From a virus: 39,001 nucleotides of DNA. The stretch lies in IMG/VR virus record IMGVR_UViG_3300000225_000120, positions 1 through 39,001 of that record. The stretch is one strand, 5' to 3'. The position numbers and the translations under genes were made by a program. The notes beneath the pieces were generated by a model. The model was not told where the DNA came from, did no database searches, and saw nothing but the letters and a program-made list of their open reading frames with translations. Within the stretch, counting starts at the first letter, position 1, and every line of letters starts with the position of its first letter. Positions 1 through 15,178 of this stretch are shown here, piece after piece.

Positions 1-1126
1 CTAAGGGTTTTTGCTTCCAGGTGTAAGGTTGGCAATACTCCAACAGTTCATCTATAAAACTATTTAGTATTCCCCTGGGTAGTGACATAGGAGACATGAT
101 TATGTCAGGGGTAAATGCAAATGTCACCTTGGCCAACAGTGGAGTATCCAATTCTTTACTCAAGTCAAACATATTTTTTACTTCGTAAAGGCCTGGAAGG
201 GTTAAAGTAAAGTCCAAACGCATTTGTCCTGGATGTTTTTCGTATGTCATACCCAACTTGTAGTATTCCAACCACTTGTCATACTCAAGACCATCCCGAA
301 TGTACTCACCAATGACACCTGTGCCATCAATTGACGCACAAATTTGCCAATCACGAATGTTTTCTAGTATGTCATTAAACAAATGACATCCCTTGTACTC
401 TATTCTTGATAGGTTTGTGTTATACCTTGCATAAACATTGGGGCCATCACCCTGTTCGATGATCTTCTTCATGTAATACCAGTGTTGTTCGAACATTAGT
501 GGCTCTCCACCTACCCAATATATCTCTTCCACCCGGTGATCACTCACTGCATCGGCAAATTCTTTCTCTACTACACTACTTTGGAACTCACTTATCTCTT
601 TTCTTACATCAGGTCGCATCCAATTGTTGGACATGTCACTGTAATTAACCATGTCATTAACTTTTTCTTCCGATTCCCACGCACTACTTAACATGTCACC
701 ACACATCCGGCACTTAAAGTTACACAAATTACTAAATCGGTAGTCCCAAGAGACTGGTTCCATGGTAGTATACCCAGTATCATCTGTTTTTTCCCATATG
801 TCATCATACTTTTCTTTGAATAGGTGCCAAAAGTAGTCCCGGTACACATCGGTATTGAGTAGTTTCTCATTGCACACCTGGCATTCGGGTATGATCTCCC
901 CGTTCATATGGGCCAACCGTACTCTTTTCATGTGGTCACTGTTCCAATGTTGGGCCAATGTCACTGGTTTATACGTTCCTGTACCCGAATCGGTGTCGAT
1001 ATACTGTGTAAAAGCACTGGCCGGCTCTCTACTAGCACAACATAAGCGTCTTTCTGATTGTGGTGAAATGTAGGTATGCATCCAAGGGGCAAGACAGAGC
1101 GATTGTGGTTTTACTTTTGGTTTCAT
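1..1126 (-). CDS. Twitch-type radical SAM protein, type I (C-terminus beyond window edge)
   Basis: An open frame starts at ATG 1126 and runs without a stop to base 1, so about 375 residues are visible and the C-terminus is missing. The radical SAM [4Fe-4S] motif CNFKCRMC is at C135/C139/C142. A GGEP motif near residue 203 (IYWVGGEPLMF) is the usual SAM amino-group contact. On the N-terminal side lie C11 (CLAPW), the pair C29-C30 and ECQVC at C82/C85, the ligand pattern of an N-terminal twitch/SPASM-like auxiliary cluster domain. Later blocks (RYNTN, ASIDGTG, GEYIRDGL) match the genes at 4419-5663 and 6565-7878, so this is a third type I paralogue; those are 414 and 437 aa, implying some 40-60 residues are lost. 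Upstream is a 113-nt gap and only a weak ribosome site. The family usually modifies peptides or proteins; the substrate here is unknown. Confidence 0.95.
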   Translation of the reverse strand, partial: MKPKVKPQSLCLAPWMHTYISPQSERRLCCASREPASAFTQYIDTDSGTGTYKPVTLAQHWNSDHMKRVRLAHMNGEIIPECQVCNEKLLNTDVYRDYFWHLFKEKYDDIWEKTDDTGYTTMEPVSWDYRFSNLCNFKCRMCGDMLSSAWESEEKVNDMVNYSDMSNNWMRPDVRKEISEFQSSVVEKEFADAVSDHRVEEIYWVGGEPLMFEQHWYYMKKIIEQGDGPNVYARYNTNLSRIEYKGCHLFNDILENIRDWQICASIDGTGVIGEYIRDGLEYDKWLEYYKLGMTYEKHPGQMRLDFTLTLPGLYEVKNMFDLSKELDTPLLAKVTFAFTPDIIMSPMSLPRGILNSFIDELLEYCQPYTWKQKPL

Positions 1127-1239
1127 TGTTTTAAATTATCTTTCTGCCCTTGGTGCCTGAACCCCACTTTTTAATGGTTTTTACAACCAGAAGACCACTG
1201 ATTCATGTCATTCCCAAAGTTTTCCCGGAGCAGATCTAC
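1127..1239. other. Intergenic gap between two radical SAM genes
   Basis: This 113-nt spacer separates the stop of the gene at 1240-2493 from the start of the next radical SAM gene. No consensus sigma70 or late (TATAAATA) promoter is visible on the minus strand. It holds short weak hairpins only (for example GGTT-GTAAA-AACC). Nothing else can be supported. Confidence 0.5.
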
Positions 1240-2493
1240 TTACAATTGACTAAGAAGCTCGTTCTCAAGCCTAATATAGCTGTAATAAGGGTGCGCCATG
1301 ACTTTGTGAGCAATCTCTTGCCACTCGGAGTAATGCTCAGAGCCTTTGACATGAACTCGTTGTTTAAGAAACTCTGGCGGCGATGGATGTGATCCGTACG
1401 TGCCCCAGTTTTGAATGGCTTGAACAGTTCCTGTCGAATTGTACTTCTGACACAGGTCTACAAAATTTGGTAAATCGTTCATGTTTTCATAATGAAGCAC
1501 AAAGTTAAAAGAATAAACAGACAATGTTCCTGGACGTGCTGATAAGTTGAACAGCACGTCTAACGAGTCCATAAGCGCCTTCCATTTCCCTGGACGTCGA
1601 ACTCTTTCATACACTTCCTTAGAGCCCGCGTCAATACTAATAGAAAACTTCTCCAATTGATTCATGATTTGAGAGTCTTTAATCCTAGACGACACGAGAG
1701 TACCATTTGTTTTTAAAATAAACCTGTGCAGAGGGTTTGGTTTGTAATTATAAATCATGTCGGAGTAGACTTTTGAAGAGAATATCTCCCCGTCGCCCCC
1801 AATCATAATCACAGCAGGATGATCAAACGAATCTAACAACTTACAAATGTGCTCAATCATACGCTTTTTATATTCAAACATCGGACCTTTATTGTTGTGG
1901 TGAATCATAGCAGGTCTACAAGTAGCACACTGTAAGTTACAACTGTCGTCAATAGCGATATTAATTTGGTAGCAATTTATATAATCAACATTCTCCGGAG
2001 TAATAAACCCAAAATATCCTCCAGGACCAGCAGCTTTAATATTCCGCACTGGAGAGTCATCAGGAAAACGTTTGTCAAACGTAAATTCATAAGTTGAGGT
2101 ATCTTCTATCCCACACGTGAGCGTGTTACAAAACTTAAATGAACCTCCAGGACGAGTAGACTCCTGTATTTTTTTAGCGACTGGATCAGCCCAAATCTCT
2201 TCAAATGATTTAAAGTTTAATATGTTTTCTACCGGGTAAGGAACCCAAGCAGGACACGAACATACAAAACATCGACCACTGTAATCAATTGTAACCGTAC
2301 GACTCGGCTCACGACACCCTACTTCAATTGGAGGAATTAAATGACGGGAAGTACGGTTTCGACGAGCGTGTTTGTGAACTTGTGCTCTGCCACTCCCACG
2401 GTAATCTTTATAATTTTTGTACTTACCAGCATGCCGTTTAATAAAGTCGTCGACAAGTGACCCCTCCTCTGCCGAGGAATCAAATTCCTTCAT
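1240..2493 (-). CDS. Divergent twitch-type radical SAM protein (GGDGE variant)
   Basis: The 417-aa protein has the radical SAM motif CNLQCATC at C185/C189/C192. Instead of GGEP it has IGGDGE at 231-236. Its N-terminal cysteines differ from the other copies: C60, C75, C78, C80, then C122 and C127, which could still bind an auxiliary Fe-S cluster. Residues 18-50 are very basic (KHARRNRTSRH). An SFEEIWADP segment near residue 96 matches the EEIW segment that sits between the cysteine pairs of twitch/SPASM domains. The C-terminus ends in IRLENELLSQL, apparently a shortened form of the R-x-E-N-L-L tail of its relatives. The start ATG overlaps the end of the 595-aa radical SAM gene by 14 nt and has GGGG just upstream, suggesting translational coupling. 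This is the most diverged of the seven; its substrate is unknown. Confidence 0.93.
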   Translation of the reverse strand: MKEFDSSAEEGSLVDDFIKRHAGKYKNYKDYRGSGRAQVHKHARRNRTSRHLIPPIEVGCREPSRTVTIDYSGRCFVCSCPAWVPYPVENILNFKSFEEIWADPVAKKIQESTRPGGSFKFCNTLTCGIEDTSTYEFTFDKRFPDDSPVRNIKAAGPGGYFGFITPENVDYINCYQINIAIDDSCNLQCATCRPAMIHHNNKGPMFEYKKRMIEHICKLLDSFDHPAVIMIGGDGEIFSSKVYSDMIYNYKPNPLHRFILKTNGTLVSSRIKDSQIMNQLEKFSISIDAGSKEVYERVRRPGKWKALMDSLDVLFNLSARPGTLSVYSFNFVLHYENMNDLPNFVDLCQKYNSTGTVQAIQNWGTYGSHPSPPEFLKQRVHVKGSEHYSEWQEIAHKVMAHPYYSYIRLENELLSQL

Positions 2494-4267
2494 TTGAACC
2501 CCGTAACTTTAATGCACTGTCCCAACCATGTTCTTTAAAGAATTTAATCCTGTCATGATCGTGATCAGCGTCTGAAGGTAATGATGCTTTAACTGACCCT
2601 GGGTCACCACGCGTCGGCCATGCGATTCGCATAGTGTCTTCATTATAGCCAATGGCTTCTGCTAATTCTGGATCAACGTCATGAAGTTTTTGTTTCCTAA
2701 TGTAATCTATTTTGTATATTAAATCATGCAATTGAGACCTTGCTTTTTCGACACTGTCAGTAACTACAACTGAATCGTTATTCATATAGTCGACTATACT
2801 CATGATGTCCGAAACATAGTCTTTACCGTCCTTTAACGTTTTAACTCGCTTGAAGTTACCCATATGACCACCTCGACTCTCAATACCACTACTGTCAACA
2901 ATAGGTTCACGTCCAAAATTCATCTCAGTAAGTAAATCATCATGATCCCAGTTATAATTCGTTAGTAAATCTGTTACAATCTTCTTATAGTCGTCCGGCA
3001 ATATGGTTATATTAAAATGATTTGGCATATGCATTAGGTTCAAGTACCATAGATCAACGTTAATCGAGCGTATCCATTCGAAGATATCGGGTATACTCTT
3101 TATGTTCAATAGGCTTATTGTACTGCATATCTCTGTAGTCATGTTAAGAAACTTATTGTCGCATAGGTAATTTATATTATAGTTAACTTCTTCCCACTTA
3201 GCACCGTACCGTTGATACTCGAATTTGTCTCCAATATCGTCTATACTGAAGGACATTTTAACCCACTTAAAGTGTGGCCAAATTTCTTCTAATGCGTGTT
3301 TAGGCAGCTGTGTACCATTGGTATTATAGTGTAGGTCAATATTTTTAGCATAGCCTTTGTCTATAGCTACCTGCAGGAAGTCAAAATGTTCTTGTATAAG
3401 CCATGATTCACCCCCGGTAAACTCTAAATGTACTATATTCGGCAGTAATTCATCTGCTAAGTTGCGCCAAAAAGCATCATTCTCACGTGGCCAATTACCC
3501 AATTTTAATCTCTTATACGACATAGTTCGTTTTAAATGTTCTTTTGGCACGTTCTCAAACTCGTATGCTATATCCATCTCATCCTGAGACCATTTAGAAC
3601 TACTAGCACTACCGCATATTCGGCACTTCAAATTGCATATAGAGCCTAATTTTAAATCAAGATACTTCATTGAAGAATCAGTTACCTCGTCAATGAATAT
3701 AGTATTACTAACGTCGGAATGTTGACAAAAAGTTTCTGCCCAATGTATACGTTTACTCTTTATACCGGCATCTTCTTCATCCCAACATTTTTTACATGAA
3801 CGTGGCTTTTTACCTGCCTTAAAGTCCGATCTCAACTGTTTCATATAGTTGGATTGGAATACTTCAGACAATGTTGAATTATTTAAATGCCATACAGTTG
3901 GAATTGTTGCATGCATACCATGGTGCCAATAATAATTATTAGGGTGAACTTGAAGTTTCTCTATAGTCAAATCTTCTTGTGTTAATGGCCAGTGTTTTGG
4001 GTCGGCAAGCTCGGCTGGTAATTCATTTGCTGATATTACATTGTCTGGCATTGCCGCAATCTCTTGATCTTCAGGGGATAATTCACTTAGATCCTTAAAG
4101 ATTGGATTCTCTGCCATACAGCATTGCTTACATTCTCCTGTTGCACTCGCTTCTAAATGCATGAATGGTAGATAGCATAGTGTAGGTACTGCTTTAAACG
4201 CTGGACTCTTTCTCGTGATAAACTCTATAGAGTCTTTTAAATTATTTTTTGCTGATGATTCGGTCAT
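2480..4267 (-). CDS. Large twitch-type radical SAM protein (595 aa)
   Basis: The radical SAM motif CNLKCRIC is at C211/C215/C218, and GGES (LEFTGGESW, 285-288) replaces GGEP. The N-terminal auxiliary-cluster region is expanded: C31 (CYLPF), C46, C49, C50, then about 107 residues before CKKC at C158/C161, with C181 after it. The block between is only about 40 residues in the type I copies, so there is an insertion of roughly 65 residues. YNTNG and SFSIDDIG correspond to the YNTN and ASLDG blocks of the relatives. Near the C-terminus, D-x-x-R-x4-L-x-x-V-x-PEL matches the tail motif of 6565-7878 and is followed by about 65 extra residues. It is the first gene after the exact consensus promoter at 4399-4427 and is preceded by GGGGA about 12 nt before the ATG. 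The substrate is unknown. Confidence 0.95.
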   Translation of the reverse strand: MTESSAKNNLKDSIEFITRKSPAFKAVPTLCYLPFMHLEASATGECKQCCMAENPIFKDLSELSPEDQEIAAMPDNVISANELPAELADPKHWPLTQEDLTIEKLQVHPNNYYWHHGMHATIPTVWHLNNSTLSEVFQSNYMKQLRSDFKAGKKPRSCKKCWDEEDAGIKSKRIHWAETFCQHSDVSNTIFIDEVTDSSMKYLDLKLGSICNLKCRICGSASSSKWSQDEMDIAYEFENVPKEHLKRTMSYKRLKLGNWPRENDAFWRNLADELLPNIVHLEFTGGESWLIQEHFDFLQVAIDKGYAKNIDLHYNTNGTQLPKHALEEIWPHFKWVKMSFSIDDIGDKFEYQRYGAKWEEVNYNINYLCDNKFLNMTTEICSTISLLNIKSIPDIFEWIRSINVDLWYLNLMHMPNHFNITILPDDYKKIVTDLLTNYNWDHDDLLTEMNFGREPIVDSSGIESRGGHMGNFKRVKTLKDGKDYVSDIMSIVDYMNNDSVVVTDSVEKARSQLHDLIYKIDYIRKQKLHDVDPELAEAIGYNEDTMRIAWPTRGDPGSVKASLPSDADHDHDRIKFFKEHGWDSALKLRGSNEGI

Positions 4268-4398
4268 ATTAAAGATTTCCCCAGTAAGATCTACTATAGT
4301 AAACCACTGTGTTTATTACTCTGTCGTATACGGTTCGGCATAGTCAACCATTCACTGGAAGCCATCCTATAGAGCGGGCTCTGTCGCAACGTTCTTAT
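4268..4398 (-). promoter_or_regulatory. Predicted 5' leader downstream of the 4399-4427 promoter
   Basis: The predicted transcript from the promoter at 4399-4427 would have a leader of about 125 nt before the ATG at 4267, long for this compact genome. On the minus strand it holds a direct repeat CGACAGAG (4319-4326 and 4379-4386), a hairpin AGAG-CCCG-CUCU, and 8- and 10-nt palindromes CGTATACG and TACTATAGTA. No known riboswitch or tRNA could be recognised. Its function is not established. Confidence 0.4.
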
Positions 4399-4427
4399 AT
4401 TATAACATTGTATAGTCATTATGTCAA
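4399..4427 (-). promoter_or_regulatory. Exact consensus sigma70 promoter (TTGACA-17-TATAAT)
   Basis: On the minus strand TTGACA occupies 4427-4422 and TATAAT 4404-4399, with a 17-nt spacer. All twelve hexamer bases match the bacterial housekeeping consensus at ideal spacing. The -35 box forms the last two codons (Leu-Thr) of the gene at 4419-5663. The first 12 nt, TTGACATAATGA, are identical to the promoter at 15186-15214. It should drive the genes at 2480-4267, 1240-2493 and beyond the left edge. Confidence 0.85.
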
Positions 4428-5663
4428 CCCTTTAAACTCTGGAAAGGTATTACTGAATGATTCGTTACGGATGGAATCCATCTTGGCCGTTAATTTGATA
4501 AAGTCTTCTAACAATGTAGGTATACTCGGTTGTTGAATAAAGTTTATAGCACTCTTATAACCATTGGTTGCTCTTTGCATTGAGTCGATAGGACTGATAT
4601 AGTCGATATGTTTATAATACTTAGCTATAATCGCTTCCTTGTCTATATCTTTAAGATTGTCTATACGGTAGTAGGGTGGATTCATCAGTATGTTAATGTT
4701 GAAATCTTGTGCTTTAATTAAACCCTTATCGATCCACTCACGGTGAAAGTCTGGCATATGATACGAATTCAGTATACTCAACGTGCAACTAATGTAGAAG
4801 TCAACGTCTGGGCATACCCGTAACATCTTCTCACGATTGGACTCTATATCTCCCCATACTGTTTCCTTCCTTATATACTCTCCTCGTATACCCGAACCGT
4901 CTAATGAAGCACCTATACTAACGGAGTCAAACTCTTTCCACATATCCAGTATACTCAATTGCTTATATTTGAGTTGCGAAAAATTGGTATTGTATATTAA
5001 CTTAACGTCTGTTCGACCTTGCTTAATCAACTCCGCAATAATCTCCCAATGTGCGGCCATCATTAGGGGTTCTCCACCAGCGAAATATATCTGTTCTACG
5101 TATGGTATATGCCTTAAACATTCTTCTATATCCAGGTTACACTCAATTACTTTAGTATGATCAGGCTTACTACCGTGTAATGCCTCATAGTCTTGATACC
5201 AATTAGAGCTAAAGAGTGGACCACACGATCGGCAACGGAAGTTACATAGGTTACTAAACCGAACATCCCAGTATACTATCTCGAACGGTGGCTCTATAGA
5301 ACGCGCCTTACTAACGTGATGACCGAAATGTTTATTAGCTGATACCCGGCCGCTCATAAAGCCATTCTTATCTTGTTCATAACACTTAGTACACTCTGGT
5401 AATGCTATACCGTTTATCATTTTACGTCTTACGTTTACCATATGGTCACTATGCCAAATCTCCTCTAGGGTATTGTCGTTAAGATTACCTATAGGCATAT
5501 CCATATCAGACATACAGCATAGGTGAACGGTAGAGTCTGGGTATGCGTGAGTATGAATCCACGGTAAGATACAGAACGTAGGGTTCTCCGTTAATACTAA
5601 TTGTTCGTATCGTGGAAGGTCTTCTAGGTTAACCTTTACTGGTCGTTTATCGTTATAGTCCAT
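4419..5663 (-). CDS. Twitch-type radical SAM protein, type I
   Basis: The 414-aa protein has CNFRCRSC at C140/C144/C147 and IYFAGGEPLMM with GGEP at 196-199. The N-terminal auxiliary-cluster region has C31 (FCILPW), C49-C50, a GNLNDNTLEEIW block and ECTKC at C91/C94. Further conserved blocks are LIYNTNFS, ASLDGSG and GEYIRKETVW. It is plainly paralogous to 6565-7878 along its whole length, including QRATNGYKSAINF and the tail R-N-E-S-x5-FPEF. The start ATG follows an AAAGGA ribosome site that overlaps the end of the upstream small ORF. Its final codons contain the -35 box of the next promoter. By family it would reductively cleave SAM and act on a peptide or protein; the actual target is unknown. 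A role in phage surface or host modification would be speculation. Confidence 0.96.
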   Translation of the reverse strand: MDYNDKRPVKVNLEDLPRYEQLVLTENPTFCILPWIHTHAYPDSTVHLCCMSDMDMPIGNLNDNTLEEIWHSDHMVNVRRKMINGIALPECTKCYEQDKNGFMSGRVSANKHFGHHVSKARSIEPPFEIVYWDVRFSNLCNFRCRSCGPLFSSNWYQDYEALHGSKPDHTKVIECNLDIEECLRHIPYVEQIYFAGGEPLMMAAHWEIIAELIKQGRTDVKLIYNTNFSQLKYKQLSILDMWKEFDSVSIGASLDGSGIRGEYIRKETVWGDIESNREKMLRVCPDVDFYISCTLSILNSYHMPDFHREWIDKGLIKAQDFNINILMNPPYYRIDNLKDIDKEAIIAKYYKHIDYISPIDSMQRATNGYKSAINFIQQPSIPTLLEDFIKLTAKMDSIRNESFSNTFPEFKGLT

Positions 5664-5669
5664 AATTGA

Positions 5670-5906
5670 TTATATTCCTTTCGTTGAATAAAAGTTTATA
5701 CGTTTAAACAAAATAAAAAAGTTTTCAAAAACGTTGGGGCAATGTGACACAGAATAATATTTGGGCATGTTATGGCCTATGCATTTTTTTAGTCGCTCGA
5801 AATATTCTGCCCTATAGGAAAAATTTTTCTCTCGTTCGTGTAACGTAGAATCATCCGTCTCTGCGATCAATTGATATTTGCCAAATTCCTTCCCAACCTC
5901 TGCCAT
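5670..5906 (-). CDS. Small unknown protein between radical SAM genes (78 aa)
   Basis: This frame starts at ATG 5906, overlaps the end of the upstream small ORF by 56 nt and stops 6 nt before the radical SAM gene at 4419-5663. The product is charged in its first half and aromatic-rich in its second, with two cysteines (KKCIGH and SHCPN). There is no good ribosome site before the ATG, and a stop codon lies two codons upstream of it. It could be a separate protein translated by coupling, or the C-terminal half of the 5851-6117 frame joined by a frameshift or sequence error. Its position next to peptide-modifying enzymes makes it a possible substrate, but no precursor-peptide family is recognised. 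Confidence 0.5.
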   Translation of the reverse strand: MAEVGKEFGKYQLIAETDDSTLHEREKNFSYRAEYFERLKKCIGHNMPKYYSVSHCPNVFENFFILFKRINFYSTKGI

Positions 5907-6117
5907 AACTTACTTCATGCCCGGCCGGGTTCCAATCTACAGGATAAAACAGTACCTGTGGAAATGATGGTGCTACTATAAAGGATCCTTCTAACCATTT
6001 ACCATTTATTCTAACTAAAAATTTCTCACCCGGGTAATCTACATTCAACGTCATACGCTTTTGACCACTGTTGGATTTCAATAATACATCCAAGTTGATT
6101 GGGTACAGTGATATCAT
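5851..6117 (-). CDS. Small unknown protein (88 aa)
   Basis: The product starts MISLYPINLD and looks like a small beta-rich domain with many aromatic residues (EKFLVRING, VLFYPVDWNP, GWEGIWQISI). It has no cysteine, signal peptide or membrane segment. It follows a 42-nt gap after the small exported-protein gene, and no ribosome site is seen before the ATG. The last 56 nt are shared with the next small ORF in another frame. I do not recognise the family. Confidence 0.55.
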   Translation of the reverse strand: MISLYPINLDVLLKSNSGQKRMTLNVDYPGEKFLVRINGKWLEGSFIVAPSFPQVLFYPVDWNPAGHEVSYGRGWEGIWQISIDRRDG

Positions 6118-6159
6118 GTTTAATTAAAGAATAGCAACATAATAAGTGGCTGAGAATTC

Positions 6160-6486
6160 TCAAAGAAGGGCACCATAAAACAAGGTACGTATAGAATATT
6201 GTCTATGATCATACGAGTATTTAGTGTGCTTACTGTTATGTTCATTCATAAATTCACGATACTCGTCAATCTTATTTTCATGCACACATGCAAGTCTAAC
6301 CATTGCAACTTTATTTTCAAATATAGTATTGAAACTTTCCAATACTTGTTGTTGAAATGCTGTATCCACTATTTGTGTTTCACATAAATCATTAGTTTCA
6401 AACGTAGTTACTTCATTAATAGTATACCAGTATTGAGGAAGTCCACTATTAAGGAGTACTACTATCATAGCAATAATATAAGTCAT
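6160..6486 (-). CDS. Small probable exported or membrane-anchored protein (108 aa)
   Basis: The N-terminus MTYIIAMIVVLLNSG is a short uninterrupted hydrophobic stretch, suggesting a signal or anchor sequence. The rest is polar with two cysteines, C35 (DLCETQ) and C68 (RLACVHE), spaced as if to form one disulphide outside the cytoplasm. The layout resembles the 116-aa protein at 12089-12439, which also has a hydrophobic start, an aromatic segment WYxI and two central cysteines. It lies between a radical SAM gene and the small ORFs, with GGATCGGA as a possible ribosome site. The function is unknown. Confidence 0.7.
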   Translation of the reverse strand: MTYIIAMIVVLLNSGLPQYWYTINEVTTFETNDLCETQIVDTAFQQQVLESFNTIFENKVAMVRLACVHENKIDEYREFMNEHNSKHTKYSYDHRQYSIRTLFYGALL

Positions 6487-6564
6487 GTTGTTCCGATCCT
6501 ATATCTGTAGTGTATAAAATTTTCGCCAGACCAGGTATTCGGCTGGGTGTGACTCGGCGCCGCC

Positions 6565-7878
6565 CTACTCATTGTATAATTGCCCTAGTTCTGGGAATAC
6601 TTCTAATAAGTTTTCGTTGCGATGCGTGTCGTATTTGTTTATTTCTTCTTTAAACTTCGGTAGTAAGTCTGTTCTGTCTTCGCTCATCATAAAGTTTATT
6701 GCGGCGTCAAAGCCGTTTGATGCTCGTTGAATATCATCTGTATCCTTAATATTATTTAAATGTTCTGTGTATAGTACTTTTATTTCTTCCTTCATCGTTG
6801 TTGGTAGTATAGTAGTTCTGTAGTAGTCGGGTCCTTGTAATATGTTTACGTGGAAGTCGAACACTTGTATTAATCCTTTATTGACCCAATCATTGTGAAA
6901 GTCTGGTAAGTGATAAGCGTTTAATACTTGTAGCGTGGCACTTGGGAAGAAGTCTACATCAGGACATACTTGTAGCATTTCGGTTCTGTTGCGTTCTATT
7001 GTGTCCCAGTGTGTTCCTTTCCTGATGTATTCTGCTCGCTTTCCCATTCCGTCTAGAGATGCGCCTATGGAAACGTCTTCGAACTCTTTCCATACATCAA
7101 ATACTAAGCGACCTTTATACTTAACTTCACTAAAATTAGTGTTGTATATTAACTGTGTATCGAACTTCTTTCGTTTAACTAGTTCATCTATTAGTTTCCA
7201 ATGCTCTTCCATCATAAGAGGTTCGCCGCCAGCAAAGTATATCTTGTCCAAGTTATCTATGTATGGTTCTATCATTTCCCAGTTGGTGTGTTTGTTGCCT
7301 GTAGTGTATTCTATTTTAAACGAAGTACCGCCATACATCTCATTAAGCTCTTTACCCCATACAGAACTAAATTGTGGTCCACACATGCGGCATTTAAAGT
7401 TACATTGATTGGTAAAACGTGTGTCCCAGTATATAATATTAGGCAACGAAGCACCATCATGTAGTGTGCCGTTTATTGTTTCTATAGCGTATGCGAAGTT
7501 TCTATTGCTTTCGTTACGTAATGAGTAGAAGCCATTACGTTCTTTCTCATAACAGTTAACACATTCTTTACACGGGATACCATTGAGCATGTTGTGTCGC
7601 ATGGTACGATATGGCGCATCATTCCATATATCTTCTACTGTGTCGTTACGTAAGTTGCCTACTGGTTCTTCGGAGACAGATATACAACATGGATAAGCTT
7701 CTCCAGTAGACGAACCATGTATGTGTATCCACGGCAGTATACAAAAGTGTTTGCTTTCCGTTAATAAATTATATTGTTTGGGTGTAAAAAATTCTACAGG
7801 TAATTGTTGTTTGTTCTTATCTAACAGTACTGTTTTGGAATCGTAAGGGTTGTCCTTACTTAAAAATCCCTTATCCAT
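6565..7878 (-). CDS. Twitch-type radical SAM protein, type I
   Basis: The 437-aa protein has CNFKCRMC at C159/C163/C166 and IYFAGGEPLMM with GGEP at 217-220. The N-terminal auxiliary-cluster ligands are C46 (FCILPW), C64-C65, a GNLRNDTVEDIW block and CKECVNC at C103/C106/C109. LIYNTNFS, GASLDGMG, AEYIRKGTHW and the tail D-x-x-R-N-E-N-L-L-x-x-FPEL match the copy at 4419-5663, so the two are recent paralogues by eye. Compared with that copy it has about 15 extra residues at the N-terminus and one extra cysteine (C103). Its start overlaps the end of the type II gene at 7871-9241 by 8 nt, indicating coupled translation. It is followed by a 78-nt spacer with a short GC-rich stretch. The substrate is unknown. 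Confidence 0.96.
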   Translation of the reverse strand: MDKGFLSKDNPYDSKTVLLDKNKQQLPVEFFTPKQYNLLTESKHFCILPWIHIHGSSTGEAYPCCISVSEEPVGNLRNDTVEDIWNDAPYRTMRHNMLNGIPCKECVNCYEKERNGFYSLRNESNRNFAYAIETINGTLHDGASLPNIIYWDTRFTNQCNFKCRMCGPQFSSVWGKELNEMYGGTSFKIEYTTGNKHTNWEMIEPYIDNLDKIYFAGGEPLMMEEHWKLIDELVKRKKFDTQLIYNTNFSEVKYKGRLVFDVWKEFEDVSIGASLDGMGKRAEYIRKGTHWDTIERNRTEMLQVCPDVDFFPSATLQVLNAYHLPDFHNDWVNKGLIQVFDFHVNILQGPDYYRTTILPTTMKEEIKVLYTEHLNNIKDTDDIQRASNGFDAAINFMMSEDRTDLLPKFKEEINKYDTHRNENLLEVFPELGQLYNE

Positions 7879-9241
7879 TAGATAGTGTTCCGTACCATCG
7901 TTCTAAGTTAGGAAACGTCTGTATGAGGTTTTTGCCTCTACGTTCATCATATTGTCTATAAAAGTGATAGAAGTCATTCTCTAAAGCAGGTTGTTCAAAC
8001 GTATCGCTGTGTGGTTTGTCTACTACATCTAAGTAGTCTATTAAACGGTTTATATGATTCTTTTCCATCTCATGCAAAAGCGGGTTATCAAAATTAAGTA
8101 TTCGCCACAAACTTAGGGTATAACGATAACTCGAGCGCAAGTATTTTGGTAGCACTAACGGTGATTGGAATGATGGAAAGCGTAATATGTTTAGAGTAAA
8201 CGTTGGAAAATCCTCTCCGTACTCGCTCTTTAACAGCAGTACAAAGTCCAGGAACTTAGGTAACGAGTCTAAACATAAACTGTTTACAGTACACATCATA
8301 TGAAAGCCTTCTAAGTTGCCTTCTTTGCACACACGATGGACGTTATTAACCCAAGTATCCCACTCTAACCCGTCTCTAATATACTCTGCTTGTGCGCCAA
8401 ATGCTTCACAAGATGTGTATAGATGTAAGTGGGGTACGTGTTGTGCGTTTTCTATAAAGCGATCTATTAGATCGTCTTTAGCACCTAAGTTAGAGTTAAT
8501 AGCGAGCCGCATATCGGACTTCTTATTGGTAGTTCTAAACCAATCAAACAACTTCCATATCTCACCAGCCATCATAGGTTCACCACCAGTAATGCGTAGT
8601 TCGTCTAGTGTGTCGTGTAACTCTAACTCCCACCATTTCCAAAAGGCTTCTACGTATGGGTTAACTTCGTCGTGCTTGTATAACTGTGCTTCGTTGTGTT
8701 CGTGTGTAAAATGGTTGCGTCCGTCTGACTTTAACTGTGTATACGCACCGTTGTTCTTTACATCTTTAACCCAAGAACTACTAAAGGCGGGATTGCAATA
8801 AGAGCAACTAAAATTACAAGTCCTATCAAAGGCAATTTCCAATGTACGTAGAGCAAAATTCTCTGTAGGTTCTTCTTGTTTAACATGATATACGTCTTCC
8901 TCGTCGTATATAACAGACTTATGGACACGATCAGAGATAGCGTCGGGTCCAATGTCTTCTATCTTCCAGCAATACTCACAGCCTGGTGGACGTTCGCCCG
9001 CAAGCATTTGTGTTCTATCCTGCTTCTTTTGCTGTGTGTTGTGTATAGCGGCAGGGTTTGTTGCTAGTTCTTTAATGTCTATCTTATGTGCTGGAGGGTG
9101 ATGGCAACTAGTAGTCATACCACTCCCAAGCCATATGGTAGCATTGCGCCATTTAGCCATACAAAAGGATGGACTTACTGTGGTGTTAAGCCATCGCTTA
9201 ATGTCTAAATCTGTTTCCCTACCCGGCGTTCTTAGCGTCAT
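7871..9241 (-). CDS. Twitch-type radical SAM protein, type II
   Basis: The 456-aa protein has CNFSCSYC at C142/C146/C149 and TGGEPMM with GGEP at 219-222. Its N-terminal cysteine region is of a second kind: C27 (SFCMAKW), C46 in CHHPPAHK, then HNTQQKK and CEYCWKIED at C88/C91. The double cysteine of type I is replaced by one Cys followed by His/Pro residues. A conserved NPYVEAFWKWW block follows the radical SAM motif. The C-terminal motif RRGKN-x-x-QTFPN is shared with 9570-11000. The ATG overlaps the MIP18-like gene stop by 4 nt (ATGA), so synthesis of enzyme and Fe-S carrier is probably coupled. By analogy it carries a catalytic cluster and at least one auxiliary cluster; the substrate is unknown. 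Confidence 0.95.
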   Translation of the reverse strand: MTLRTPGRETDLDIKRWLNTTVSPSFCMAKWRNATIWLGSGMTTSCHHPPAHKIDIKELATNPAAIHNTQQKKQDRTQMLAGERPPGCEYCWKIEDIGPDAISDRVHKSVIYDEEDVYHVKQEEPTENFALRTLEIAFDRTCNFSCSYCNPAFSSSWVKDVKNNGAYTQLKSDGRNHFTHEHNEAQLYKHDEVNPYVEAFWKWWELELHDTLDELRITGGEPMMAGEIWKLFDWFRTTNKKSDMRLAINSNLGAKDDLIDRFIENAQHVPHLHLYTSCEAFGAQAEYIRDGLEWDTWVNNVHRVCKEGNLEGFHMMCTVNSLCLDSLPKFLDFVLLLKSEYGEDFPTFTLNILRFPSFQSPLVLPKYLRSSYRYTLSLWRILNFDNPLLHEMEKNHINRLIDYLDVVDKPHSDTFEQPALENDFYHFYRQYDERRGKNLIQTFPNLERWYGTLSNG

Positions 9242-9573
9242 AACATTCCCATTTCTAGTTTAGCATGTTCTGGTATCATCTCTGGCCCCCAAGTTGGGTC
9301 AAACGTCATATCTACTTTAATGTCATTGAGACCACCAACGTCACATGCCTCATTTACTTGTTGATATAACATGTCGCCAACAGGGCAAAACGGTGATGTT
9401 AACGTCATTGTTACTGTTAAGTTTAAATCCTCAGTAATATCTATGTCATATATTAAACCTAAGTCGTATATATTGATATGTATTTCAGGATCATATATCT
9501 GTCGTAAGTTGTTTACTATTTGATCTACTATAGGATCAATGCCTTCTTCATATGTTGTTGCGTGTGTGTTCAT
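9238..9573 (-). CDS. MIP18/SufT-like (DUF59) Fe-S cluster assembly protein
   Basis: The 111-aa product has the MIP18/PaaD/SufT layout: IYDPEI and NIYDLGLIYDI near residues 26-43, TLTSPFCPVGD with the family's single conserved cysteine (C63), and the C-terminal FDPTWGPEMIPEHAK. Family members help mature or deliver Fe-S clusters. It overlaps the preceding and following radical SAM genes by 4 nt each (ATGA), so the three form one translational unit. That arrangement strongly suggests it serves these enzymes, which need several clusters each; this link is inference. Full family length is present, with no fusion or truncation. Confidence 0.9.
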   Translation of the reverse strand: MNTHATTYEEGIDPIVDQIVNNLRQIYDPEIHINIYDLGLIYDIDITEDLNLTVTMTLTSPFCPVGDMLYQQVNEACDVGGLNDIKVDMTFDPTWGPEMIPEHAKLEMGML

Positions 9574-11000
9574 AATTGTGCTAACCTCTTACATTCTTCC
9601 CACCAGTCTATCATCTCTGGGAATGTTTCTATAAAGTTAGTGCCACGACGGGTGTCGTGCTCGTTAAAAAAGCGATAAAAGTCTGCTTTACAATTGTTTA
9701 CATATACTGGATCTAACTTACTACCTTCCTGCCACCATGCTAAGTCTCTATGCATACGTTGAATTTCATAATCTTTAAAGCCTTTAAAGCGAGATTTCTC
9801 GTCTTCCATGTTATCTAACATCCAACATGTGTTCTCTTCGTGTATATCTTGGTATGGTTCAGGCAATAACTGTATGCTTTGCCAAGCAGGCTGTCGTAAT
9901 AGCGGTGTATCAAACCATATACGTTGATAAGTTTCACTATATGCTTGTCGCAAACCGTGTATATAGCCTAATAACTTATCCATTCCTGTAATACTTAAAT
10001 TGTTATATGTTATAATAAACGTTAAAGAGTTTCTATACGGAACTTCCGTTAAGTATGTGTTGATATTATCGCACATCTTATTAAAGTCTAACCCATTACG
10101 TATATACTCGGCTTGTTCCAGCCAACTGTCTACACTAACGTATTGCATAAAGTGTTCTACTTTCTCTTCCAAGCATATGCGTTTAACTTTTTCTAAGTAT
10201 TTGTCAAACAATTTGTTGTCTACTGGACTAAAGTTACTTGTAACGTTTAAATGTAAGTCGCTTTTGGGATTGTCTATAATGTAATCAAATACTTTATGTG
10301 TATTTTTATCCATCATAGGCTCACCACCAGTCATACGGAAATGCTTTAAGTCTTTATATAAGTCAGGCCACCACTCCCAAAACGCTTCTACATAAGGATT
10401 ATACTTGCTGTGTGGTATGCAAGGGTTAATCTCAAAGTGTTCAGGTGCGTTATGTGGTTTAGATGTAGGCCAGGCACCGTGTTGTTTCATTTCTTTATCC
10501 CACGCAGTACTAAATTGCGGACTGCAATAACTACATTTTAAGTTACAGTTGTGGTTAAAGTTTACTTCTACATAACGCGGGTTCTTATCAGCATCCCAAG
10601 GAGCATTAACTACTTCGTCAAAGTCCATTGCGGCCCACGGCTCACCACTTCTGTAATGCCTATCACTCATATGCCCAGTATCTTCTATGTTCCAACAGTA
10701 CTGACACTCGCTAGGACGTACACCTTCTAGCATAAGTTTACGCATTTCTTTCTTATGTTGGGTGTTGTGTAGAGCAGACGGTGTGCCTAACTCCATTTTA
10801 TGTAGTGGTGGGTGGTAACAACTGTTGTTTAATCCAGTTGGTAAATGTAAACTAACTTGGTTCCACTTTGCAAGACAAAAGGATGGTGATACAGAGTCTA
10901 ACTGTACTTTAATATCCTCGGCACTTCTATAGAAATCTGACTTAAACTTACCATCCTTAACTTCTATTTTGTCGCCCTTATTGTCTTTAAAAAGTTCCAT
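9570..11000 (-). CDS. Twitch-type radical SAM protein, type II
   Basis: The 476-aa protein has CNLKCSYC at C152/C156/C159 and MTGGEPMM with GGEP at 225-228. The N-terminal region has C42 (SFCLAKW), C61 in CYHPPLHK, HNTQHKKEMR and CQYCWNIED at C99/C102. It is a full-length paralogue of 7871-9241, sharing NPYVEAFWEWW, AEYIRNGL and the tail DTRRGTN-x-x-ETFPEM. The first 20 residues are charged and not conserved in its partner. The start lies 4 nt after the stop of the basic small protein when that is read in its shifted frame. It is followed by the MIP18-like gene with a 4-nt overlap. The substrate is unknown. Confidence 0.95.
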   Translation of the reverse strand: MELFKDNKGDKIEVKDGKFKSDFYRSAEDIKVQLDSVSPSFCLAKWNQVSLHLPTGLNNSCYHPPLHKMELGTPSALHNTQHKKEMRKLMLEGVRPSECQYCWNIEDTGHMSDRHYRSGEPWAAMDFDEVVNAPWDADKNPRYVEVNFNHNCNLKCSYCSPQFSTAWDKEMKQHGAWPTSKPHNAPEHFEINPCIPHSKYNPYVEAFWEWWPDLYKDLKHFRMTGGEPMMDKNTHKVFDYIIDNPKSDLHLNVTSNFSPVDNKLFDKYLEKVKRICLEEKVEHFMQYVSVDSWLEQAEYIRNGLDFNKMCDNINTYLTEVPYRNSLTFIITYNNLSITGMDKLLGYIHGLRQAYSETYQRIWFDTPLLRQPAWQSIQLLPEPYQDIHEENTCWMLDNMEDEKSRFKGFKDYEIQRMHRDLAWWQEGSKLDPVYVNNCKADFYRFFNEHDTRRGTNFIETFPEMIDWWEECKRLAQL

Positions 11001-11170
11001 AGTTTACTTAGGCTTTTTCTTTTTCTTTGTTTTATCTTTACCTGGTTTGTCTCTACTTTTACTTTCCATCCTTGCCTCCCTTTTTTTCTAGTTGTATCAG
11101 TAGGTCCAAACTCTCCCATGCTTTTACCATGTAGTTTAGTTCTACTAAAGTTATAAAGGTCATGATTCAT
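10964..11170 (-). CDS. Small basic protein, possible -1 frameshift gene
   Basis: The ATG at 11170 shares a base with the stop of the upstream gene (TAATG). The unshifted frame gives 68 residues, lysine- and arginine-rich after residue 28, and overlaps the next gene by 37 nt. At 11081-11087 a run of seven A on the minus strand gives A AAA AAA in frame. Shifting -1 there yields a 55-aa product ending KTKKKKKPK with TAA at 11006-11004, four bases before the next ATG, a much cleaner junction. A third reading is a separate 21-codon ORF (ATG 11069) with GGGAGG five bases upstream. The family is unrecognised; the basic tail suggests nucleic-acid or phosphate binding. A homopolymer sequencing error is also possible. 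Confidence 0.6.
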   Translation of the reverse strand: MNHDLYNFSRTKLHGKSMGEFGPTDTTRKKGRQGWKVKVETNQVKIKQRKRKSLSKLWNFLKTIRATK

Positions 11171-12096
11171 TACCAGCCTTCAATGCCGCGTATTACATCT
11201 AATTCTTGTATCATTATATCATAGTTTGTGTGCTTGCTGTAATGTGTTTTAAAGAACTTACTTGCTTCAGCATCCATTTCGCATATAGGCATACCTAATT
11301 TGTTCTGTAATATTTCTCCTATACGCTCTGCTTCATCCCATGGGTTTTGCATTTCGTATTCTCCATGATATATCTCATTGAGGTATGTAAAGTCTCTTAC
11401 ATTAATGTAATCCCAATCGGTAAGCATAGTTAAATATGTGCCTAACCGTGCGCCGTATATACTCCATATGCCGTGCTCAACATCGCGTCCTACAGTTTGC
11501 CATATACATAAGTTATCTAAGTTACGAGCGTGTATTTGTTGTTCAAATGTTTTTAAATCAGGTTTAGTTCCTTTGTTTAAAACCATCTTAACACCTTCTC
11601 TAAACCCAGCACGCCATGCGTGTAATGCTGAACCATTTGGGTATGTTGTGCTATAGCAGTTATGCATTGGTCTGTAGTTGTCGTCAAAACAAAACTCTAC
11701 TAATGTTTCATCAGAACCATCAGTGTTCTCATGTGTAGTCATGTTTAAAACAAAGTCCACAGGCCAACAACTTAACCCACCATTACCATACATTAGTCCG
11801 TTTATAATATTACGACCCTTCCATCTAAACACACAATGTTTAGTAACATCATCCAATGTTAATTGTAAGTTAAAAAACTCTGGGTCGGGTAAGTTATCAC
11901 CGTCTATTAAAACAAATCGTCCTGAGGGAGAAGCTCTAGCCGCGGCCTTGTGTGCGGCATCTGATCCTTCTATACCATCAATGTGTATTGCCCATGGCAC
12001 CATGTTTAGTATCTTGGCCCAAAACTCATCCTTTTGTGGCTCATCGTATGTTAAGTATATGCAATCTAAGTCAGCAATGTCAACTATTTCAGTCAT
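11170..12096 (-). CDS. Glycosyltransferase-like protein with DGDN motif
   Basis: I chose the ATG at 12096 over the upstream one at 12117 because AGGAAGGA lies just before it; this gives 308 residues. The N-terminal segment (IYLTYDEP, then VPWAIHIDGIEGSDAAHKAAA) followed by FVLIDGDNLPD at about residues 61-71 has the pattern of a nucleotide-sugar-binding GT-A fold, where the acidic DGDN would bind metal. Downstream blocks NGGLSCWP and HAWRAGFREG are consistent with an enzyme active site, but I cannot assign a GT family or a sugar. It overlaps the upstream small gene by 8 nt and the downstream basic ORF by 1 nt. Its place between two other glycosyltransferase-like genes and the radical SAM block suggests one pathway. 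Confidence 0.75.
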   Translation of the reverse strand: MTEIVDIADLDCIYLTYDEPQKDEFWAKILNMVPWAIHIDGIEGSDAAHKAAARASPSGRFVLIDGDNLPDPEFFNLQLTLDDVTKHCVFRWKGRNIINGLMYGNGGLSCWPVDFVLNMTTHENTDGSDETLVEFCFDDNYRPMHNCYSTTYPNGSALHAWRAGFREGVKMVLNKGTKPDLKTFEQQIHARNLDNLCIWQTVGRDVEHGIWSIYGARLGTYLTMLTDWDYINVRDFTYLNEIYHGEYEMQNPWDEAERIGEILQNKLGMPICEMDAEASKFFKTHYSKHTNYDIMIQELDVIRGIEGW

Positions 12097-12710: not shown

Positions 12711-13120
12711 TTTTTCTCCTGTTGTAATTGATAATAATTTTCATCTTTATTGAATTTTACTTTATCAGCAGTAATAATTTCTTTAATAATCCTATGATCC
12801 TTGTCTGTAACATATACGGGTAAATCTGGATCTAATTCTGTTGCGTGTGTTACTTTAGTATATTTTCTTAAACGGTTATATACGTCATGTTTAATTGGTT
12901 CTAACTTACCATTAATTATTACCCAATCAGTAATGTGATTAGTGTCTAACCATTTAGAAGGGACTTTAATATGAAGACGGAACTCATCTACATATATGGA
13001 TGCTTCATATATAATGCCGTTATCATGATAATATAAGCAGTAATCTACTTTAGCAACTTCTAATTCTTCCTGTGATTCAATTGCTTCTATTAAATCATCT
13101 ATTCCTTTAATCGTGCTCAT
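12707..13120 (-). CDS. Unknown protein (137 aa)
   Basis: The protein starts with an acidic helix-like segment (IDDLIEAIESQEEL), continues with alternating beta-like strands (YCLYYHDNGIIYEASIYVDEFRLHIKV) and ends in a charged Gln/Lys tail. It overlaps the upstream glycosyltransferase-like gene by 14 nt and the downstream gene by 4 nt, and has no clear ribosome site, so it is probably translated by coupling. No family is recognised. Confidence 0.72.
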   Translation of the reverse strand: MSTIKGIDDLIEAIESQEELEVAKVDYCLYYHDNGIIYEASIYVDEFRLHIKVPSKWLDTNHITDWVIINGKLEPIKHDVYNRLRKYTKVTHATELDPDLPVYVTDKDHRIIKEIITADKVKFNKDENYYQLQQEKK

Positions 13121-13970
13121 AGTATTCTATTGTTTTATCTGCTAGGTACTCTTTACACTCTGCACCATGTACTGGATATATTTGCGGCTCTACGCCTAAT
13201 ATTAAACCAACGTCATCACTATACTCTATATTAATAATATCTTCTATCTCATGTTGCTCTGGCCAACCCAGTATGTTGTTTTTCATATGCACAAATGTTG
13301 GGTAGTCTAACACATTATTTGTATGTGTATATTCTGCTTCTTGTAACACTAATGCTATTGCTAACGCAACATCAGTAGTAGGCTTTTCATCTCTACAATT
13401 TTTTAAACATTCAGATACTTCATCCCAATTTTTATAAACCCATTTAAGTGCTCTAAACAGTTTTAAACTTTCTTCTCCATAACGGAAGTACATAAACCCA
13501 CTATAAGTGTTAGGTAAGTTGTTGATATCAAAGAGTTTTCTGTACTTGCGTGAGTTAGATATAGAACCGTCTAGTTTACGAACATTGGTCGCAATCATTA
13601 CTTCCTGCTCACGCATAAACGTCCACCAATGATCTATATTGCGTGTAAACACAATATCACAATCTAACTTAACTGTCTCTTTAAATGGTGTTATTGACCA
13701 TGCTTTCCATTCATTGCCTAACTTCCATGAGTCATCCTCACTATCATCGCCCCACGGAATGTCTACTACATAGTCAAATACTTTGTAATGCTTTTCTGTT
13801 AATTGTTCTTTAGTTGGTTTATCTACAGCGATGGCAAACTTGTTTATAGTTTGTGTTGCTTTTAGACTTAATCCACAGGCGTATGCTAGTTTTAAATAGT
13901 CAGTATCGTTGTTATTTTGAACAAATGTGAAGTACCCAATTTGTTCATTATGTTCCTTGATTCTTTTCAT
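13107..13970 (-). CDS. Glycosyltransferase-like protein (GT-A fold, DCD motif)
   Basis: The 287-aa product has GYFTFVQNNN at its N-terminus, typical of the first strand and loop of GT-A enzymes. It then has a TPFKETVKLDCDIVF block in which DCD (103-105) is the likely metal/nucleotide-sugar DxD motif. SGFMYFRYG follows in the acceptor half. The DxD block and its surroundings match the neighbour at 13948-14826 (TPYEKTLLLDVDYLMF), so the two are paralogues. The first 23 nt overlap the end of that neighbour in another frame; no good ribosome site precedes the ATG. It is similar in style to GT8-like phage enzymes. The sugar and acceptor cannot be read from the sequence. Confidence 0.8.
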   Translation of the reverse strand: MKRIKEHNEQIGYFTFVQNNNDTDYLKLAYACGLSLKATQTINKFAIAVDKPTKEQLTEKHYKVFDYVVDIPWGDDSEDDSWKLGNEWKAWSITPFKETVKLDCDIVFTRNIDHWWTFMREQEVMIATNVRKLDGSISNSRKYRKLFDINNLPNTYSGFMYFRYGEESLKLFRALKWVYKNWDEVSECLKNCRDEKPTTDVALAIALVLQEAEYTHTNNVLDYPTFVHMKNNILGWPEQHEIEDIINIEYSDDVGLILGVEPQIYPVHGAECKEYLADKTIEYYEHD

Positions 13971-14826
13971 ATGTCACATGCGTTTTTTGATTTGATATAA
14001 CAGGTTGAAACACATAATCTAATATCTCTTTAGCACAATTTATTATACTATGCTTGTTCATAATATGAATATTAGTATTTGTTATATAAGATACTTCTAT
14101 TTTATTTTTATTTTCATATTCATATATTACACTAGTATCTGGTTTTACTCTAGTTAATGTGCTTTCTGAAGGGAGAGTAAACAAAGGACTCTGAAAATAA
14201 CTATTACAGTTTAATAAATTATATGCAATACTTATAGCATAGTCATTTCTGTATGGGCCACTTCTGAAATTATATAAATTGTAATAATATTGATAGTTAT
14301 CTCGTACTAACTTAACAAGATTAAAAAACTCCTTTGCTGTATTATTTTTAGTAAAATATAATACAGTTGCCCATAACATTGGAGTACTACTCCAGTGTAA
14401 TAGTTTGTCATCTATAAAACTGTTTTTACCTGTAATGTCATAAACATTATTATGGCATATTAATTCTTGATCAGATTCAAATAGCCATTGCAACGAGTTA
14501 TTAAACATAAGATAATCTACGTCTAATAGTAATGTTTTTTCGTATGGGGTTAAATCATATGCGTGTGGGCGAGTTTTATTGTGCCAAGTAACTTCTTCTG
14601 TCTTACCATTAGGAATTCTAAAAGTGCGGTGGCCACTATCACCTGCCTCAACTATGATAACATCATCAAAAGGATGTCCTTCATCTATATTTTTATCAGT
14701 GACTAGGGTTACACCACAATGTGGTAAATGTTTTTTAACTAATAATGTACAGAGCTTAGCTAGTTCTGTATATTTTATTGATTCATTATTGTATGCAAAC
14801 AATAATATGCCATTTTCTGTGGCCAT
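13948..14826 (-). CDS. Glycosyltransferase-like protein (GT-A fold, DVD motif)
   Basis: The 292-aa protein has a GT-A-like N-terminus (GILLFAYNN, CGVTLVTDK) and a TPYEKTLLLDVDYLMF block with DVD at 102-104 as the likely metal/nucleotide-sugar motif. WATVLYFTKNN follows in the second half. It is paralogous to the next gene at 13107-13970. It starts one base after the stop of the 116-aa gene, placing it second in the transcript from the consensus promoter at 15186-15214. It could glycosylate a virion protein, host surface sugar or the radical SAM product; none of these can be chosen from sequence. Confidence 0.8.
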   Translation of the reverse strand: MATENGILLFAYNNESIKYTELAKLCTLLVKKHLPHCGVTLVTDKNIDEGHPFDDVIIVEAGDSGHRTFRIPNGKTEEVTWHNKTRPHAYDLTPYEKTLLLDVDYLMFNNSLQWLFESDQELICHNNVYDITGKNSFIDDKLLHWSSTPMLWATVLYFTKNNTAKEFFNLVKLVRDNYQYYYNLYNFRSGPYRNDYAISIAYNLLNCNSYFQSPLFTLPSESTLTRVKPDTSVIYEYENKNKIEVSYITNTNIHIMNKHSIINCAKEILDYVFQPVISNQKTHVTYEKNQGT

Positions 14827-14827
14827 C

Positions 14828-15178
14828 TTATAGCTGCTCGGGCTTTCGTATTCCCCTAATCTTGTTCATTTGTACCATATATTCGTTATTAACTTCATAA
14901 TATCGTTGCCATAATTTTTCACAAAATTCTTGTGAGTTTTCTATTAATATAGGATTATCATATGAATCTAATATTATTGTGGGATTTGCTTTTAAATCTG
15001 CTGATTGTGCTATTTGTTGGCGTAACGAAAGCATTTCAGCAAATGTAATTAATTCTCTGGTTACTTTAAATAAACCGCTGTTATAGGGGAGGGATAATAA
15101 ACCTAGAGTGGCTTCACGCATTGTTGCGTGGGCCACTTTTTGGTTAAACTTCTTTTTAACTGTATCTTTTACACTCAT
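14828..15178 (-). CDS. Unknown protein (116 aa), first gene of the accessory operon
   Basis: The product has a basic, probably helical N-terminus (VKDTVKKKFNQKV) and continues with helix-rich segments (ELITFAEMLSLRQQIAQ, EFCEKLWQRYYEVNNEYMVQ). There is no signal or membrane segment. The ATG has no ribosome site and lies about where the consensus promoter just upstream should start transcription, so the message may be leaderless. An internal ATG at residue 20 is the only nearby alternative and also lacks a ribosome site. The helical layout recalls small tail-assembly or scaffold proteins, but no family is recognised. Confidence 0.75.
   Translation of the reverse strand: MSVKDTVKKKFNQKVAHATMREATLGLLSLPYNSGLFKVTRELITFAEMLSLRQQIAQSADLKANPTIILDSYDNPILIENSQEFCEKLWQRYYEVNNEYMVQMNKIRGIRKPEQL

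Follow-up and report, generated by a model that had tools for sequence, protein, structure and literature searches.

A conserved cassette of radical SAM genes with N-terminal Twitch domains in the tail region of large T4-like phages

Radical SAM (rSAM) genes are already known in several copies from marine phages, according to the accessible text of two reports. The T4-like marine phage TARA_ERS488813_N000010 was reported to carry 12 rSAM genes, along with paaD, among its Fe-S-related auxiliary genes (Nishimura et al. 2017, PMC5332604), and in 2020 rSAM gene cassettes were noted in pelagimyophages, within their host recognition cluster (PMC7029224). A family, NCBIfam NF033640 (N_Twi_rSAM), has also been curated, and defines a subfamily with an N-terminal Twitch domain followed by the rSAM core, without assigning it a function. 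Here we describe seven rSAM genes in a 39,001-base IMG/VR record (IMGVR_UViG_3300000225_000120; this whole stretch is called the window), five of which form the core of a cassette found in 51 viral loci, with a counterpart in a bacterial chromosome. The window is 100% identical over its full length to the reverse strand of IMGVR_UViG_3300025676_000713, a T4-like phage contig of 322,647 bases (the parent contig), which bears out the phage origin proposed in a preliminary description of the window. On the minus strand of the window a T4-like tail module is followed by glycosyltransferase-like genes and then by the seven rSAM genes (Table 1).

The rSAM genes and their N-terminal domain

The seven rSAM open reading frames (ORFs) are intact and lie on the minus strand between positions 2 and 11000, and each product has a CX3CX2C motif, a GGE or GGD motif and a match to PF04055. 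The preliminary description had counted seven CX3CX2C proteins within 11 kb of phage DNA, all with an additional cysteine region before the rSAM motif, and both observations hold, as extra cysteines precede the rSAM core in all seven proteins. The seven ORFs contain no internal stops, the dN/dS ratios relative to their closest relatives are 0.03–0.18 (for types 7, 6, 4 and 1, where dS is unsaturated), and the motif is retained in 369 of 371 genes; the sequences are under purifying selection. The concern that most copies might be pseudogenes, which would have undone that description, is dismissed because of the lack of stops and the low dN/dS values.

A profile search against rSAM subfamilies, also proposed at that stage, places six of the seven proteins in NF033640, with whole-protein scores of 270–386 bits against a curated cut-off of 170 bits (E = 1e-80 to 1e-115) and near-full-length matches, far beyond chance. 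P0002 scores 41 bits and is a distant rSAM protein of another kind, not a member of the N_Twi family. Type 1 is complete in the parent contig, where it encodes 435 aa (153463–154770). The proteins represent at least four sequence types, as had been suggested, with P0004 and P0005 sharing 45% identity and P0006 and P0007 35%, and with P0001, P0003 and P0002 as additional groups. The cluster motif and the GGE-type SAM motif that characterize the rSAM superfamily are present in all seven, and the fold is seen in an AlphaFold2 model of P0005 (pLDDT 92.5, pTM 0.90), which matches rSAM structures.

As published, a Twitch domain consists of a cysteine, a hairpin, a second cysteine, two helices and a CXXC motif, and has one auxiliary cluster (PMC6231123). 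The P0005 model has this layout, with C46, a hairpin of strands 52–55 and 60–62, C65, a short helix (81–85), a long helix (88–98) and C106/C109; the cluster itself is predicted. Seven cysteines are invariant among 65 N_Twi relatives, these four (P0005 numbering) and the three of the rSAM motif, and the C-x18-C and C-x2-C spacings are constant in the same set. Pfam SPASM matches are found at the N-termini of P0001, P0002, P0004 and P0005, and the Twitch domain of BtrN aligns by profile with the N-terminal region of the rSAM proteins. Because the modelled layout fits the published Twitch and the BtrN Twitch aligns N-terminally, the extra domain is a permuted Twitch, relocated ahead of the core, and the twitch-domain identity proposed in the preliminary description is right. 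The canonical SPASM/Twitch arrangement places the auxiliary domain C-terminal to the core, whereas in all of these proteins it is N-terminal. The presence of four cysteines suggests that the auxiliary cluster is fully ligated, like that of BtrN.

A five-type cassette in phages and in a bacterial chromosome

Genes were typed by their best match to the seven, and 51 core loci, the parent contig included, contain all of types 7, 6, 4/5, 3 and 1. The five types share one strand in all 51, and their order is 7-6-4/5-3-1 in 45 loci (one with an extra type 6 behind), 7-6-4-1-3 in five and 7-6-1-4-3 in one, so that the survey for recurrence envisaged in the preliminary description finds conserved order in other phages. 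No two of their type-7 proteins merge at 95% identity, whereas at 80% they form 30 groups and at 70% they form 10. In a tree with homologues, built by a quick method without bootstrap, types 7, 6, 3 and 1 are each recovered as a single clade (SH-aLRT support 98, 100, 95 and 100, respectively), and types 4 and 5 cluster jointly with two cellular sequences. It follows that the paralogues predate the phages compared. Both types 4 and 5 are present in the subclade of the window, and usually one of them elsewhere. The seven genes are not a single set, as had been supposed: the core accounts for five, a sixth is an extra 4/5 copy confined to this lineage, and P0002 stands outside the N_Twi family.

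The N_Twi family is present in 36 of 37 related viral records, usually in 5–21 copies, in a sample biased by its selection through rSAM similarity (five records were picked by the PaaD-like protein). A fairer sample, drawn through the gp6-like baseplate protein, has the family in 15 of 19 records of at least 34 kb, with five or more copies in 14; the four records without it are fragments shorter than 50 kb. Cultured phages are almost devoid of the family, and none with the full cassette was found; KVP40-like Vibrio phages have one distant copy each, and Vibrio phage K566 has three genes.

A bacterial counterpart is found in a Bacteriovoracaceae chromosome, in which eight clustered N_Twi genes adjoin rplU, rpmA and obgE (the ribosomal L21/L27 region, recognised by sequence). 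Its members fall within the type 7, 6, 1, 3 and 4/5 clades, with SH-aLRT support of 98, 96, 99, 96 and 98, respectively, and the family scores above the cut-off in 31 of 57 genomes of the same order. In relatives of the Bacteriovoracaceae genome (G057 and 30 others of its order) N_Twi rSAM genes are greatly expanded in number, some lying in clusters and others dispersed. The five-type set behaves as one unit, because its order is almost fixed and its strand constant, it is under purifying selection, and all five types are clustered in the Bacteriovoracaceae chromosome. The multi-step pathway that the preliminary description offered as one explanation gains strong, if indirect, support from the conserved cassette in 51 loci, the ancient paralogues, the purifying selection and the bacterial set.

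The succession of tail, glycosyltransferase and rSAM genes also appears in four contigs labelled as metagenome-assembled genomes (MAGs) of Betaproteobacteria, Pelagibacter, Verrucomicrobia and Rickettsiales (L136, L137, L138 and L140). Because of this phage gene order, these are probably phage contigs that were binned into MAGs.

Partner genes and the possible substrate

Table 1. Features of the window at and near the rSAM cassette (window coordinates).
Feature	Description	Position	Strand	Remarks
rSAM type 1 (P0001)	N_Twi_rSAM	2..1126	-	270 bits, E 3.6e-80; cut by contig end
rSAM type 2 (P0002)	417 aa; GGD replacing GGE; N-terminal SPASM-like region	1240..2493	-	lineage-specific
rSAM type 3 (P0003)	595 aa; N_Twi_rSAM	2480..4267	-	308 bits
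rSAM type 4 (P0004)	414 aa; N_Twi_rSAM	4419..5663	-	375 bits
rSAM type 5 (P0005)	437 aa; N_Twi_rSAM	6565..7878	-	386 bits; AlphaFold2 model
rSAM type 6 (P0006)	456 aa; N_Twi_rSAM	7871..9241	-	315 bits
PaaD/SufT-like	MIP18 family; Fe-S assembly protein	9238..9573	-	overlaps both neighbours (types 7 and 6)
rSAM type 7 (P0007)	476 aa; N_Twi_rSAM; first gene of cassette	9570..11000	-	307 bits
F1 (P0009)	308 aa; glycosyltransferase-like	11170..12096	-	invariant DGDN motif
F3b	GT8/glycogenin-like glycosyltransferase; DCD motif	13107..13970	-	profile
F3a	GT8/glycogenin-like glycosyltransferase; DVD motif	13948..14826	-	profile
s132	conserved small protein, 116 aa; part of tail/glycosyltransferase/rSAM module	14828..15178	-	53 loci
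T131	conserved tail-region protein; upstream of cassette	15218..16132	-	46 loci
Tail-fibre-like	structural protein	16241..17785	-	

F1 lies immediately upstream of type 7 in 50 of the 51 core loci and is 57–83% identical over 33 members. It has no match in Pfam, the PDB or cultured phages, a PDB profile search gave nothing useful, and its assignment as a putative glycosyltransferase is therefore drawn from the DGDN motif. The F3 profile matches glycogenin (E 2.7e-5), and tail and GT8 genes stand upstream of the cassette in 45 core loci. F4 follows type 1 in 40 core loci; its family (parent contig 157652–158791) is present in 46 loci and has many invariant residues, and for its model (pLDDT 86.6) a fold search against the PDB was empty (best E 1.2) and a PDB profile search gave nothing useful. 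A NodU/CmcH-type carbamoyltransferase is encoded downstream in 36 core loci, and SGNH-like proteins in many.

We infer that the five enzymes form one pathway and, more weakly, that its substrate is a sugar or glycan. The latter rests on the constant upstream partners being glycosyltransferases (the two glycogenin-like GT8 enzymes and F1), on the usual downstream partners being an SGNH protein and an O-carbamoyltransferase, and on the sugar genes carried by cellular loci that resemble the cassette. Flavobacteriales loci, for example, combine three rSAM genes with an SGNH gene, a prenyltransferase/glycosyltransferase/SGNH fusion and PhyH oxygenases, and one also has a sugar epimerase and a carbamoyltransferase; F1-like genes adjoin rSAM genes in three Bdellovibrionota genomes. 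Our preferred reading, tentative and at somewhat below even chances, is that radical enzymes acting in several steps tailor a sugar or glycan belonging to the virion or to the surface of the host. The rSAM cassette would then be co-transferred as a multi-step tailoring unit of the tail and host-recognition region in large T4-like phages, and its five core enzymes, each with a predicted 5'-deoxyadenosyl-radical core, would act sequentially on one substrate. Radical chemistry would oxidise a sugar, or a glycan built by these partner enzymes, or rearrange it in some other way; the product would be O-carbamoylated and would end up on the tail of the virion or on the host surface. Fe-S cluster loading would probably be aided by the PaaD-like protein, in the subclade of the window's phage only.

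Several observations weigh against a glycan substrate. Most cellular N_Twi genes stand alone and the neighbours of these single genes share no common theme, and no clear glycan operon was seen around the Bacteriovoracaceae cluster; a tally around Bdellovibrionota N_Twi genes gives mainly more rSAM genes (10 of 67), with four GT2 genes. The nearest folds of the P0005 model are maturases of ribosomally synthesized and post-translationally modified peptides (RiPPs) as much as sugar enzymes, with TM scores of at most 0.37. The carbamoyltransferase may be a separate unit, because it occurs without the rSAM cassette in cultured cyanophages and in HTVC008M, in the latter near a glycosyltransferase and a UDP-glucose dehydrogenase. 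Of the partners, F1 is without a database match and F4 without a known fold.

The resemblance to peptide maturases makes peptide modification the main rival to glycan tailoring, in which the enzymes would crosslink, epimerise or dehydrogenate residues of a tail or receptor-binding protein encoded just upstream, and the glycogenin-like enzymes would perhaps glycosylate it. Known glycogenin-like transferases include some that act on protein, the cassette has a fixed position behind the tail genes, and the top Foldseek hits include the maturases SkfB, anSME, CteB and SuiB. SkfB, CteB and SuiB have an N-terminal RiPP recognition domain (PMC6231123), but the P0005 model has none, its residues 1–20 being of low confidence and the Twitch starting at about residue 45. 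No linked precursor was found near the cassette, the sole conserved short peptide there going with the carbamoyltransferase rather than with the rSAM genes, and the five types are also present in a bacterium, away from any tail genes; we regard this explanation as doubtful.

It is more improbable still that the genes encode independent auxiliary enzymes with differing substrates, accumulated in a variable host-recognition island and sharing no single pathway. The island is hypervariable, with rSAM cassettes gained and lost (PMC7029224, accessible text), further rSAM genes are dispersed in the genomes bearing the cassette (the 322 kb parent contig has 16 hits to the family), and type 2 and the extra 4/5 copy are lineage-specific. 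Accumulation of this kind is at odds with an order and strand that are near-constant over 51 loci and with a bacterial chromosome that has all five types together. Some phage DNA-modification pathways are known or predicted to include rSAM and carbamoyltransferase genes, but hypermodification of phage DNA or nucleotides is very unlikely, as only four of 15 cassette-bearing records have the thymidylate-synthase-type hydroxymethylase (PF00303), the parent contig being among the 11 that lack it, and the cassette is in the tail module, away from replication genes. Viperin-like enzymes, whose modified nucleotides would target competing phages or the transcription of the host, are the least likely of all: all seven proteins have weak viperin matches, including weak PADLOC matches, and viperins are among the fold matches of the P0005 model, but the NCBIfam viperin scores are at most 32.5 against a cut-off of 180 bits and cover the shared rSAM core only, and all seven carry the additional Twitch/SPASM-like domain.

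Returning to the tailoring of a glycan, its most specific form, in which large T4-like phages and Bdellovibrionota have in common, as a unit, a five-step rSAM pathway to a glycan of novel chemistry on the surface or the virion that serves to recognise the host (or prey), is one that we think unlikely as a whole. Large marine and freshwater phages devote 5–20 genes each to oxygen-sensitive radical chemistry, and a fixed five-gene module tied to the tail region and glycosyltransferases, and also present in a bacterial chromosome, makes a pathway that can be tested out of what was a mere list of auxiliary genes. Were the product a virion or surface glycan, it would bring new radical chemistry into phage host recognition.

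Other genes of the region are less closely tied to the cassette. The tail module holds a baseplate hub gene (37028–38584), genes for tail-fibre-like proteins, and three further genes that we name from position, size and knowledge of T4-like phages, two presumably gp25- and gp6-like and the third encoding a 4847-aa protein. The last is a single ORF at 18642–33185, and is possibly a VrlC-type baseplate protein of pelagimyophages. The PaaD-like protein passes PF01883 (55 bits, cut-off 23.5) and falls short of the equivalog TIGR02945 (113 versus 143 bits); its gene was considered as a part of the core and rejected, being present in two of 15 large records and therefore lineage-specific. Genes for A-type Fe-S carriers (PF01521) occur, singly or in pairs, in six of the 15 large cassette-bearing records (G015, G022, G027, G028, G032 and G037). 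Directly after type 1, at 154752–157698 of the parent contig, reading of the sequence suggests a glutamine synthetase, purC, purE and a YqeY-like gene, and a relative (L008) has matching genes at the equivalent place. At 164551–168165 the parent contig encodes a 1204-aa protein with about a dozen DFSWHPD...FPSQWQRDGGT-type repeats and an F1-like region.

A short conserved gene (~33–58 aa), with the near-invariant C-terminus LKELRKRDPFIYK and a variable N-terminus, is usually immediately upstream of the carbamoyltransferase, and most core loci have it on the downstream side of the cassette. It is located at about 160451–160627 of the parent contig (L108, 451–627), and is also found in loci L009–L084 and L215–L334. 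Its third codon positions are the most variable (entropy 1.2 versus 0.26–0.51), and the ORF is therefore a real gene; the peptide has no match in cultured phages. It was considered as a RiPP precursor or rSAM substrate, and this was rejected on the basis of a pattern scan: among 54 stretches of at least 9 kb containing the peptide, a carbamoyltransferase is within 2.6 kb in 47 and an rSAM gene in 20, and the peptide accompanies the carbamoyltransferase in phages that have no rSAM gene close by.

Comparison with described systems

The novelty claimed in the preliminary description was overstated with respect to the presence of many rSAM genes in a phage, given the two earlier reports and the curated family. 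For the five-type order, the partners and the bacterial counterpart, no paper was found in the open-licence literature (supplements excluded); the five-type cassette and its partners are also outside the definition of NF033640. Among cultured phages, KVP40-like Vibrio phages (nt-1, KVP40 and K566) encode distant N-Twitch relatives that are 22–30% identical to P0004 and P0005. In nt-1 the rSAM gene is away from the tail genes, unlike the cassette; K566 has three rSAM genes close together, in a region with no F1, F3 or F4 match. In BtrN, the Twitch rSAM dehydrogenase of the butirosin pathway, four cysteines fully ligate the auxiliary cluster (PMC6231123), and the N_Twi proteins likewise have four cysteines; the Twitch is behind the core in BtrN and ahead of it here, and the likeness does not imply a shared substrate.

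Further genes of TARA_ERS488813_N000010 are cas4, grx and one for an A-type carrier; no such carrier was found in the window's phage, which has the PaaD-like gene. The accessible text on that phage gives neither gene order nor paralogue types, tail linkage or partners (PMC5332604). The pelagimyophage cassettes are presented, in the accessible text, merely as a difference between two genomes, without family assignment or order, and they occupy the same genomic place as the cassette described here, a tail-fibre island with glycosyltransferases (PMC7029224).

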